A program made the position numbers and the translations under genes. DNA of 64,000 nt from NCBI GenBank assembly GCA_900319855.1, contig ONQC01000001.1:1-64000 (forward strand). The letters are read 5' to 3'. The notes beneath the pieces are model-generated. The model did not search any database and was not told the DNA's origin. It saw nothing but the letters and a program-made list of their open reading frames with translations. Below, in pieces: positions 6,252-31,030 of the stretch (positions are counted from its first letter, which is position 1; each line of letters opens with the position of its first letter). Source of the DNA: an uncultured Bacteroidales bacterium (GTDB taxonomy: Bacteria; Bacteroidota; Bacteroidia; Bacteroidales; UBA932).

Positions 6252-6875
6252 ATGCCTGGATTAATTGGAAAGAAAATCGGAATGACTTCCGTTTTCGGTG
6301 CTGATGGAAAAAATATTCCATGCACCGTCATTGAGGCTGGTCCATGTGTTGTTACGCAGGTTAAGACGGTTGAGACCGATGGGTACGCCGCCGTCCAGCT
6401 TGCCTATGACGAAACCACAGAGAAGCATGCCAGCGCGCCTCTTCAGGGCCATTTCAAGAAGGCAGGTACCGCCCCGATGCGCAAACTCGTCGAGTTCCCG
6501 CAGGATTTCGGAAAGGAACTGAGCCTGGGCGACACCCTGACGATCGAAGATGTCTTCACTGACGTCAAGTTCGTCGATGTCGTCGGTACCTCCAAGGGTA
6601 AGGGATTCCAGGGCGTCGTCAAGCGCCACGGATTCGCCGGTGTCGGCGGTGTGACCCATGGTCAGCACAACCGTCTCCGTCACCCTGGTTCCATGGGTGC
6701 ATCCTCCTGGCCGTCCCGCGTCTTCCCCGGAATGCGCATGGCCGGTCACATGGGTAACGAGCGTGTCAAGGTACAGGGCCTGTCCGTCCTGAAGCTCATC
6801 CCTGAGAACAACATCATCGTAGTGAAGGGCTCTGTCCCGGGAGCCAAGGGCTCTTATGTAATTTTGGAGGCATAA
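6252..6875 (+). CDS. rplC: 50S ribosomal protein L3
   Basis: A 207-residue L3 that binds 23S rRNA and reaches the peptidyl-transferase centre with its loop. It begins [13 protein letters not shown], contains [15 protein letters not shown] and the highly conserved [15 protein letters not shown] stretch, and ends at normal length. It is the first gene of this ribosomal segment, where rpsJ would normally be first. The 4-nt gap to rplD, with GGAGG at the end of rplC, suggests coupled translation. Confidence 0.97.
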
Positions 6876-6879
6876 GATT

Positions 6880-7509
6880 ATGGAACTCAACGTATTGAAA
6901 ATAGACGGCACCCAGTCTGGAAAGACCGTCGTCCTTGATGAGAAAGTCTTTGGCGTGACTCCGAACGAGCATGTCATGTGGCTCGACGTCGTCCAGTACC
7001 TCGCCAACCAGCGTCAGGGTACCGCCAAGACCAAGGACAGAAGCGAAATCGCCCACTCCACCAAGAAGCTCGGCCGTCAGAAGGGCGGCGGCGGCGCACG
7101 TCACGGATCCCTCAAGGCCAACATCTTCGTCGGTGGCGGCCGCGTCTTCGGTCCGAAACCGCGCGACTACCGTTTCAAGCTCAACAAGAAGGTCAAGCAG
7201 CTGGCCCGCGTCTCCGCCCTCTCCCAGAAGGCTCTCGACAACGCCATCACCATTGTGGAGCCATTCACCATGGACGCCCCGAAGACGAAGGAATTCCTCG
7301 GCATCGTCAAGGCCCTCAAGGCCGGCGACCGCAAGGTCCTCTTCGTTCTCCCGGAGAACGCCAACAACATTTTCCTTTCATCCCGCAACCTCCCCGAGGT
7401 TAATGTCATCACCGTTGACGAGATCAACACCTACGCGATCATGAACGCTTACTCGCTCGTGCTGGTGGACGGTGTCCAGGATATTCTCGCCTCGAGAGTC
7501 AACCGCTAA
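6880..7509 (+). CDS. rplD: 50S ribosomal protein L4
   Basis: A 209-residue L4, which lines the exit tunnel and in many bacteria represses its own operon. The tunnel-loop region is visible as GRQKGGGGARHGS, followed by GGGRVFGPKPRDY. Length and order (L3-L4-L23) are standard. The gap to rplW is 12 nt. Whether autoregulation by L4 exists here cannot be told: no obvious E. coli-type S10 leader was seen. Confidence 0.97.
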   Translation: MELNVLKIDGTQSGKTVVLDEKVFGVTPNEHVMWLDVVQYLANQRQGTAKTKDRSEIAHSTKKLGRQKGGGGARHGSLKANIFVGGGRVFGPKPRDYRFKLNKKVKQLARVSALSQKALDNAITIVEPFTMDAPKTKEFLGIVKALKAGDRKVLFVLPENANNIFLSSRNLPEVNVITVDEINTYAIMNAYSLVLVDGVQDILASRVNR

Positions 7510-7521
7510 AAGAACAAAGAG

Positions 7522-7812
7522 ATGGGAATTATCATTAAGCCAATCGTTACAGAGAAGATGACGGCTCAGGGCGAAAAGTTGAACCGTTACGGTTTCATTG
7601 TCGACCGCTCCGCGAACAAGATCGAGATCAAGACCGCCATCGAGCAGATGTACAATGTCACCGTCGCATCTGTCAATACGCTCAACTACCACGGCAAGCG
7701 CAAGGCCCGCTACACCAAGGCCGGTCTGCTCCGTGGCCGCATGAATCACTTCAAGAAGGCCTACGTGACCCTTGCAGGTGAAGACAAGATCGATTTCTAT
7801 GCTAATATTTAA
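7522..7812 (+). CDS. rplW: 50S ribosomal protein L23
   Basis: A 96-residue L23, located at the tunnel exit where trigger factor and SRP dock. The start IIIKPIVTEKMT and the central NKIEIKTAIEQMYNV segment are typical. Its stop codon TAA overlaps the strong AAGGAGG that precedes rplB, so the two genes are likely coupled. Confidence 0.96.
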   Translation: MGIIIKPIVTEKMTAQGEKLNRYGFIVDRSANKIEIKTAIEQMYNVTVASVNTLNYHGKRKARYTKAGLLRGRMNHFKKAYVTLAGEDKIDFYANI

Positions 7813-7818
7813 GGAGGG
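7811..7818 (+). promoter_or_regulatory. Shine-Dalgarno site of rplB
   Basis: AAGGAGGG lies 9 nt before the rplB ATG and overlaps the rplW stop. Strong Shine-Dalgarno sites are uncommon in Bacteroidota, so this is notable. Confidence 0.7.
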
Positions 7819-7827
7819 ACTTAAGCT

Positions 7828-28495: not shown

Positions 28496-28885
28496 ATGGC
28501 AAAGAAAACTACAACAGCTAAAAAGAGAGTCGTCAAGGTCGAGGCCGTTGGTGAAGCGCATATTTCATCAACGTTCAACAACGTGATCGTTGCCCTGACC
28601 AACAATATCGGTCAGGTGATCAGCTGGTCTTCCGCCGGTAAGTGCGGATTCCGCGGCTCCAAGAAGAACACTCCGTACGCCGCCCAGATGGCAGCTGAGG
28701 ATGCCTCCAAGACCGCGTTCGACGCAGGTCTCCGCAAGGTCAAGTGCTACGTGAAAGGCCCGGGTGCAGGTCGTGAGTCCGCCATCCGTACCATCAACAA
28801 TGCCGGTATCGAAGTCATCGAGATCATCGATGTCACCCCGATGCCGCACAACGGTTGCCGTCCGAAAGGCCGTCGTAAAGTTTAA
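28496..28885 (+). CDS. rpsK: 30S ribosomal protein S11
   Basis: A 129-residue S11 of the platform. Core features are [20 protein letters not shown] sequence, [21 protein letters not shown] and the C-terminal signature [18 protein letters not shown]. It lies 10 nt after rpsM. Confidence 0.97.
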
Positions 28886-28904
28886 TTTTTAAGATTTCAT
28901 TACT

Positions 28905-29510
28905 ATGGCAAGATATACTGGACCTAGCACAAAGATCGCCCGTAAATTCGGCGAGCCTATCTTCGGCTCCGATAAATATTTCGAGAAGCGCAACTTCCCT
29001 CCGGGACAGCACGGTGCCTCCCACAAGCGTGCCCGCAAGGCCACCGAATACGGTGCCCAGCTGAAGGAGAAGCAGAAAGTCAAATACATGTACGGCCTGC
29101 TCGAGCGTCAGTTCCGCAATACCTACGAGAAAGCGTCCCGCATGAGCGGCCAGAAGGGTGAGAACCTCCTCTTCCTCCTCGAGTCCCGCCTGGACAACCT
29201 CGTGTACCGCCTCGGTATCGCTCCGACCCGCGCCGCTGCCCGCCAGCTCGTCCTCCACAAGCACATCACCCTCAACGGCCAGGTGGTCAACATCCCGTCC
29301 GTGATCGTGAAGGCCGGTGAGACCATCGCTGTCCGCGAGCGCTCCAAGAGCCTGGAAGTCATCCAGAACAGCGTAGCCTCCGCTACCCGTTACTCCTGGC
29401 TCGAGTTCGACGCCAAGAATCTTTGCGGCAAGTACCTTAACGTCCCTGCCCGCGAGGAGATTCCCGAGAACATCAACGAACAGCTGATCGTCGACCTCTA
29501 CTCCAAGTAA
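28905..29510 (+). CDS. rpsD: 30S ribosomal protein S4
   Basis: A 201-residue S4, assembly initiator and, in some bacteria, regulator of the alpha operon. It opens [20 protein letters not shown], has [19 protein letters not shown] and the S4 RNA-binding domain [20 protein letters not shown]. No zinc-binding cysteine cluster is present at the N-terminus. Gap to rpoA 26 nt. Confidence 0.97.
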
Positions 29511-29536
29511 TCGTTAACACCTTAAAGAGAAATTTT

Positions 29537-30544
29537 ATGGCAATCTTAGCATTTCAGAAACCGGATAAGGTCATCATGCTCGAAGGCACCGAGACCGTCG
29601 GCCGTTTCGAATTCAGGCCCCTTGAGCCTGGATACGGACAGACCATCGGCAACGCCCTTCGCCGCATCCTCCTTTCTTCTCTGGAAGGTTTTGCTATCAG
29701 CTCGATCCACATCAGTGGCGTAGACCAGGAGTTTGCGACCATCCCGGGCGTGATCGAGGGGATGCAGGACATCATCCTGAACCTCAAGCAGGTCCGTTTC
29801 AAGCGGATGGTGGACAGCGTGGATTCCGAGGTAGCAAACATCACCATAAGCGGCAAGCAGGAGTTTACCGCAGAGGATATCTCCAAGGGATTGTCTTCTT
29901 TCAAGGTGCTGAATCCAGAGCTGCATATCTGCTCGCTTGAACCTTCCGTCAAACTCGAGATTTCCCTGACCATCACCCACGGACGCGGCTTCGTGCCGGC
30001 CGAGGAGGAGCGGGACGAGAACACCCCGATCGGAACCATCCCGGTCGATGCGATCTACACCCCGATCCGCAAGGTCAACTGGACCGTCGAGAACTGGCGT
30101 GTCGAGCAGAAGACTGACTATGAAAAACTGAATCTCGAGATCGTGACCGACGGGTCCATCTCTCCGGATTCGGCCCTTCAGGAAGCAGCCAACATCCTCA
30201 TCTATCATTTCAAGCTCTTCACGGACGACAACAAGATCACCCTTGAAAGCCCGGAAGAGACCGATTCCGAGAAATTGGATGAGGACGGTCTCCGTATGAG
30301 ACATCTCCTGCTGACCAAGCTTTCCGACATGGGACTTTCCGTCCGTGCTTACAACTGTCTGAAAGCCGCCGATATCGATACCTTCGCCGACCTTGTGTCC
30401 TACAGCCGCGCCGAACTGATGAAGTTCCGCAACTTCGGCCGCAAGTCCCTCAACGAAATCGATATCCTCGTCGAGAAGATGAAACTCTCCTTCGGAATGG
30501 ATGTCAGAAAGTATAACATTGAACCTAAGAAAAAGATCGTATAA
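29537..30544 (+). CDS. rpoA: RNA polymerase alpha subunit
   Basis: A 335-residue alpha subunit. The N-terminal assembly domain includes [18 protein letters not shown] (about 33-50) and the C-terminal domain, which contacts UP elements and activators, has helix-hairpin-helix sequence [20 protein letters not shown] and [12 protein letters not shown]. Length is typical. rplQ follows after 3 nt. Confidence 0.97.
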
Positions 30545-30547
30545 ACC

Positions 30548-31030
30548 ATGAGGCACAACAGACAAATCAATCACCTCGGTCGCACGAGCGGTCACCGCAA
30601 AGCCCTGCTCTCCAACATGGCTTGCTCCCTGATCATGCACAAGAGGATCAACACCACCGTCGCCAAGGCGAAGGCCCTCAAGATGTATGTCGAGCCGCTC
30701 GTCACCAAGTCCAAGGACGATTCCACCCACTCCCGCCGTGTCGTCTTCAGCTACCTGAAGGATAAGAACGCCACCGCCGAGCTGTTCCGGACCATCGCTC
30801 CGAAGATCGCTGACCGTCCGGGCGGATACCTCCGTATCCTCCACACCGGTTTCCGTCAGGGTGACGCCGCCGAGATGGCGCTCGTCGAGTTCGTCGACTT
30901 CAACGAGGCCGCGCTTGCTTCCGCTCCCAAGGAGGCCAAGAAGAGCACCCGCCGCAGCCGCGCCAAGAAAGCCGAGGCCGCCCCGGCAGAGGCTCCCGCC
31001 GCTGAAGAAGCCCCGAAGACCGAGGAATAA
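30548..31030 (+). CDS. rplQ: 50S ribosomal protein L17
   Basis: A 160-residue L17 near the tunnel exit. The core ends by about residue 120 and is marked by [20 protein letters not shown] and [11 protein letters not shown]. The last 35-40 residues form a low-complexity tail rich in Lys, Ala, Pro and Glu, which other Bacteroidota L17 proteins also have. It is the last gene of the operon, followed by a terminator. Confidence 0.96.

Follow-up and report, generated by a model that had tools for sequence, protein, structure and literature searches.

Loss of the rpsJ-rplC and rpsC-rplP junctions of the ribosomal protein gene cluster in part of one Bacteroidales family

Disconnection of operons within the str-S10-spc-alpha cluster of ribosomal protein genes is already known: a survey of 204 genomes of Proteobacteria, Acidobacteria, Firmicutes and Tenericutes counts 163 events in the cluster, with 75 of 115 rearrangements leaving operons intact by falling between them (PMC8046335). 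Here we describe a split of this cluster in a 64-kb stretch of DNA from an uncultured Bacteroidales bacterium (the window), which is the first part of a 116-kb contig in a genome of 2.15 Mb (60 contigs, completeness 90.9%). The operon disconnections that the survey describes in Gammaproteobacteria and Bacilli are likewise old inherited breaks in the same cluster and fall mostly between operons (PMC8046335). Both breaks described here, by contrast, interrupt the S10 operon as it stands in E. coli. Pieces of the cluster are also dispersed or reordered in Borrelia, Treponema and Aquifex, where the moved parts are described as other genes or entire operons (PMC2481283, PMC3879981). In Vibrio cholerae, growth is reported to drop as the whole locus sits farther from the origin (PMC10127744). 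No account of the present split in Bacteroidales was found in the titles and abstracts searched, which mostly do not cover subscription literature, and its breakpoints are rare in the samples taken.

Gene order from rplC through rplQ was read from open reading frames (ORFs) and Pfam matches on each gene, and the ribosomal genes of the window were found to form two detached pieces:

6252-10153, + strand: detached seven-gene block rplC-rplD-rplW-rplB-rpsS-rplV-rpsC (ORFs, Pfam)
20451-31030, + strand: detached rplP-to-rplQ run, the remainder of S10 with spc and alpha (ORFs, Pfam)

The first piece runs from rplC (6252-6875) to rpsC (9386-10153) and the second from rplP (20451-20870) to rplQ (30548-31030), with rpmD at 24912-25091 inside it. 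Their separation, with rplP resuming only at 20451, had been noted in the initial annotation and is confirmed as real. That rpsJ is missing in front of rplC, as had also been stated, was borne out: the sole rpsJ match of the genome lies on another contig (C26:12368-12652), where it closes a run behind rpsL-, rpsG- and fusA-like genes (locus L142; clusters c10, c13 and c11, identified as S12, S7 and EF-G by Pfam on a relative's copies). The canonical junctions rpsJ-rplC and rpsC-rplP are thus both absent from this genome, and the gene order of the E. coli S10 operon places both breaks inside that operon. Within each piece the genes and their order are those of the canonical cluster in the other Bacteroidales families sampled; the difference is that the cluster is cut here at the two junctions into separate loci with their own promoter boxes.

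The split is a trait of part of one Bacteroidales family, which we take to be UBA932 of GTDB, the genus of the window being presumably Candidatus Cryptobacteroides. Across a sample of the order, rpsC and rplP were adjacent in 144 of 148 genomes, so that the split is not shared by most of the order; the exceptions were the window's genome (G000), G065 and G081, all of the window's family, and G047, in which each gene lies at the end of a ~5-kb contig. The phylum sample comprised 138 genomes, G000 being the only one from the order; 133 returned both genes and five neither, and adjacency was kept in 132 of the 133, with G000 as the sole exception. The junction is intact in all other families sampled in the order and in all other judgeable genomes of the phylum sample. 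The five genomes that gave neither RpsC nor RplP (G454, G470, G509, G526 and G532) are rated at least 99% complete and perhaps have missing stretches there. G387, a genome of ~1050 contigs, carried two extra divergent rplP matches (C523:2635 and C540:2573, 42-43% identity), perhaps from contamination. Within the family (36 genomes of 24 genera, out of 249, picked mostly for contiguity), rpsC-rplP was kept in 6 genera and split in 18, the latter including three single-contig genomes, and rpsJ-rplC was kept in the same 6 genera only and lost in the same 18. One genome, G100, was classed as split from contig placement, with 1.8 kb after rpsC free of rplP. G106 had two rpsJ matches of similar score, 270 bases before the end of one contig (C2:166639) and 940 bases from the start of another (C18:939), perhaps an assembly duplicate. 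Among the best 80 of 584 confirmed stretches around RpsC in named records, 48 loci were split, 30 had rplP next and 2 were undecided, ending within 130 bases of rpsC (L025, L041). Split records include Candidatus Coprenecus merdigallinarum (L044) and Candidatus Minthomonas equi (L054), which have no rplP in the 1.3 and 1.6 kb downstream of rpsC, respectively, and stand outside our tree.

In a tree of 16 proteins and 54 rows, all 30 split rows, representing 17 genera (G100 and G016 are not in it), formed one clade with an SH-aLRT value of 100. A second tree, built by a slower method from 35 of these rows, recovered the split clade at 100/100, and each of its 200 bootstrap trees explained the split by a single change. 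Since all split genomes in the tree belong to one clade, the seven-gene block left the cluster once. The split is older than the window's genus, in agreement with the initial annotation's view of an old, stable rearrangement, and g37 and g46 are the earliest-branching split genera. As read from gene order on the tree, the event was the removal of the block by cuts at rpsJ-rplC and rpsC-rplP.

Between rpsC and rplP, 11 non-ribosomal genes on both strands fill positions 10225-20252:

10225-13802, + strand: thioredoxin-like gene, uvrC and pnuC, the rpsC-to-acpP segment in the window's genus (gene order, Pfam)
13937-20252, strand mixed or unstated: acpP, 547-aa gene, starch-synthase-like gene, ftsX, DUF3098, uppP, lpxH-like gene and DUF4294 (Pfam)

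Pfam upheld the names uvrC, pnuC, acpP, ftsX, DUF3098 and uppP (Pfam BacA) given previously and was consistent with lpxH, yielding metallophosphatase only, but DUF4270 was not confirmed for the gene at 14264-15907, which had no Pfam match at E 0.001 and just two weak unrelated ones at E 10. The 547-aa product of this minus-strand gene has a Gly/Tyr-rich tail, and the gene is kept before rplP in 10 split genera. As had been proposed, the intervening genes are ordinary ones: no mobile-element family (transposase, integrase or similar) was found by Pfam across the 11, one of which (14264-15907) has no assignment, and insertion of a mobile element was rejected as the cause on these grounds.

The further claim that these 10 kb of genes broke the operon is probably wrong. 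The split predates the genus, and where other split genera have both halves on one contig (seven genomes), rpsC and rplP lie 155-441 kb apart in six (G063, 441 kb; G181, 385 kb; G070 and G074, 274 kb each; G150, 231 kb; G126, 155 kb), so that the ~10-kb spacing appears to reflect halves brought close again later. Moreover, rplP is preceded by the run from the 547-aa gene to DUF4294 in at least one genome of each of 10 of the 18 split genera (g1, g27, g28, g29, g30, g34, g35, g39, g40 and g45). DUF4294 alone stands before rplP in g38, g41 and g42, and the run was not found within the stretch fetched from g26, g36 (2.3 kb), g37 and g46; the last two being the first to branch, the run may have arisen after the split. 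In six unsplit genomes the matches to uppP, DUF4294 and fabF lie mostly on separate contigs (fabF and DUF4294 share a contig in G067, 49 kb apart), and the neighbourhood before rplP was therefore probably assembled in the split clade, with the caveat that these assemblies are fragmented. In five genera rplP is preceded, directly or nearby, by a membrane-dipeptidase gene (c4, Pfam), and downstream of rpsC there is a serine beta-lactamase family gene (c2) in seven genera, in some with shikimate-pathway genes as well. The genes preceding rplP apparently gained the rplC-rpsC block, along with uvrC-pnuC, as neighbours at a later time in the window's genus.

Among the 11 split genomes with rpsJ and rplP on one contig, six of four genera (G063, G181, G064, G069, G087 and G074) have rpsJ 38-92 kb upstream of rplP and in the same orientation. 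The same holds in the window's genus for G279 (23 kb) and G016 (165 kb); the two genes are on differing strands in G126, G070 and G150. Same-strand rpsJ upstream of rplP fits the block's removal from between them. G279 shows all three pieces in their former order and direction, with gaps of 8.6 and 10.2 kb.

We consider it unlikely that the 10 kb instead descends from an insertion into an intact operon, with the separation by hundreds of kilobases elsewhere coming later. Closeness should be lost more easily than gained, a pattern of insertion followed by disconnection is described for Gammaproteobacteria and Bacilli (PMC8046335), and in the window's genus 14 of the 16 genomes whose halves could be placed on one contig have gaps of 9.8-19.3 kb (the other two, 68 and 505 kb). 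Yet both trees place this genus within a set of genera whose halves are far apart, and the early-branching g37, g46, g41 and g45 carry other neighbours after rpsC, with no thioredoxin-like gene, uvrC or pnuC found in the 9-13 kb fetched from them. Among the loci fetched from other genera, uvrC was near rpsC once, in G073, 4.7 kb off and on the opposite strand.

Removal of the block left rplC and rplP as first genes, and both are preceded by signals:

6183-6190, + strand: promoter -7 box TACCTTTG before rplC (TAnnTTTG box in 59/59 split loci, window included)
6191-6251, + strand: rplC leader, 61 nt, with a 5' terminal hairpin, arms TCCGC and GCGGA (leader comparison)
10187-10220, + strand: intrinsic terminator hairpin after rpsC (fold -24.9 kcal/mol, z -5.4, 0/200 shuffles as good)
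20354-20361, + strand: promoter -7 box TAACTTTG before rplP (TAnnTTTG box in 35/35 split loci, window included)
20362-20450, + strand: rplP leader, 89 nt, the set structured above chance, fold not settled (shuffle z-scores)

TAnnTTTG, which we take to be the Bacteroidota -7 element, was looked for within 260 nt upstream of rplC and rplP; in split regions its distance from the gene is 55-115 nt for rplC in 57 of 59 and 60-140 nt for rplP in 33 of 35. A simple terminator scanner did not list the hairpin at 10187-10220, probably because the first T's of its run sit in the stem. Terminators were found downstream of rpsC in 49 of 84 split loci (some genomes entering twice) versus 0 of 24 unsplit loci. 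The strong terminator after rpsC and the new transcription signals on both sides that the initial annotation had called are present as sequence; boxes, hairpin and terminators are features of the DNA, from which we infer their activity. Having the same type of promoter probably holds expression of the pieces at similar levels.

Both leader sets are structured above chance, with mean z-scores of -2.58 for rplC (n = 55) and -1.79 for rplP (n = 51) against -0.21 and -0.16 in the respective controls, that for rplC being the region upstream of the promoter. All 55 distinct rplC leaders had the 5' hairpin, built from 32 different arm pairs, and it would most simply be mRNA-stabilising. Such structure is what one might expect if the rplC and rplP leaders were new autoregulatory sites for a ribosomal protein, replacing lost joint control, and an H-type pseudoknot recognisable in the window and in a few relatives was slightly above shuffles in 25 rplP leaders of the window's genus (14/500 shuffles reach its pairing, 30/500 its pairs with two-sided changes, 39/500 its covariation, but 156/500 its pair types). 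This pseudoknot was rejected, however, as a model for rplP leaders in general, giving over 46 of the 51 (five short ones were dropped) a mean z of -0.43 versus -1.37 for nested folds. RNAalifold found no base pair, and thus no shared fold, in either leader alignment; no Rfam family matched the window at gathering scores, and at E 10, searched in the rplP region only, there was one chance RybB match below threshold; and the rplC hairpin, lacking a conserved loop, is a better fit to a plain stabilising hairpin. Mimicry of the S8 site, weighed by eye against known 16S features, was discarded. Autoregulation at these leaders is an unlikely reading, and it seems improbable that each orphaned unit is repressed separately by its own ribosomal proteins via new leader RNAs; were it so, joint control would have given way in this clade to two new feedback loops, independent of each other, that balance its ribosomal proteins.

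Assembly error is a negligible prospect even in a metagenome-assembled genome of 60 contigs and 90.9% completeness, because the same arrangement and spacing recur in other genomes of the genus and the split is found in 18 genera, single-contig genomes among them.

We regard single-origin removal of the seven-gene block, followed by the acquisition of separate signals, as very likely the explanation. The ancestor of 18 of the 24 sampled family genera underwent a rearrangement, or two linked ones, that excised rplC-rpsC from the str-S10-spc-alpha cluster, which ranks among the best-conserved operon clusters, and left str-rpsJ and rplP-rplQ behind as separate units. The new first genes, rplC and rplP, would then have gained a promoter box of a class that in the window's genome also precedes tRNA genes and some translation genes, giving growth-type boxes on both orphaned pieces, with terminators arising after rpsC in many lineages. 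In the window's genus the halves would have come back to ~10 kb apart later. The split, its single origin and the signals are read from sequence; expression of the pieces, its balance and the order of these later moves we infer.

Several observations weigh against this explanation or parts of it. The tree was built from ribosomal proteins themselves, and most named records are metagenome assemblies. The terminator count, besides its repeated genomes, includes 35 of 84 split loci with no terminator by the chosen criterion. Boxes also occurred before rplC in 1 and rplP in 5 of 16 unsplit loci, all at 191-251 nt upstream and, by position, within the preceding gene. A stricter shuffle control was weaker for the rplC hairpin: 37% of shuffles keeping the first 8 nt reached a score attained by 54 of the 55 leaders, and values taken singly were <0.05 in 21 of 55, so that the case for the hairpin lies in the set and not in individual leaders. 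No acpP-DUF4294 run preceded rplP in the 6.0 and 14.9 kb fetched from g37 and g46. The argument for re-approach in the window's genus is one of parsimony, and in G061, of another split genus, the halves are 21 kb apart with different genes between them.

A group of gut genera has thus lived without the rpsC-rplP linkage since one old event. Promoters, leaders and terminators can be read in sister genera of both kinds, linked and split, which offers a natural test of the linkage's role, and the split is a rare genomic character for placing genomes within the group.

The class of the boxes was read from their other occurrences. In the window's genome TANNTTTGCANNCC occurs at 36 sites and the reversed pattern at 0. 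The loci of 30 of the 36 sites were read: two are rplC and rplP, and 15 of the other 28 lie within ~70 nt upstream of a tRNA gene, in one case with rpsT behind the tRNA. Further sites precede rplU, smpB, ffh and yceD, and one box-preceded gene, glyS-like by eye, had no Pfam match on the part tested. At G000:C21:179679 (L223), a perfect hairpin and T run resembling a terminator come immediately after a box of this class, with tRNA-Pro directly behind, perhaps an attenuator.

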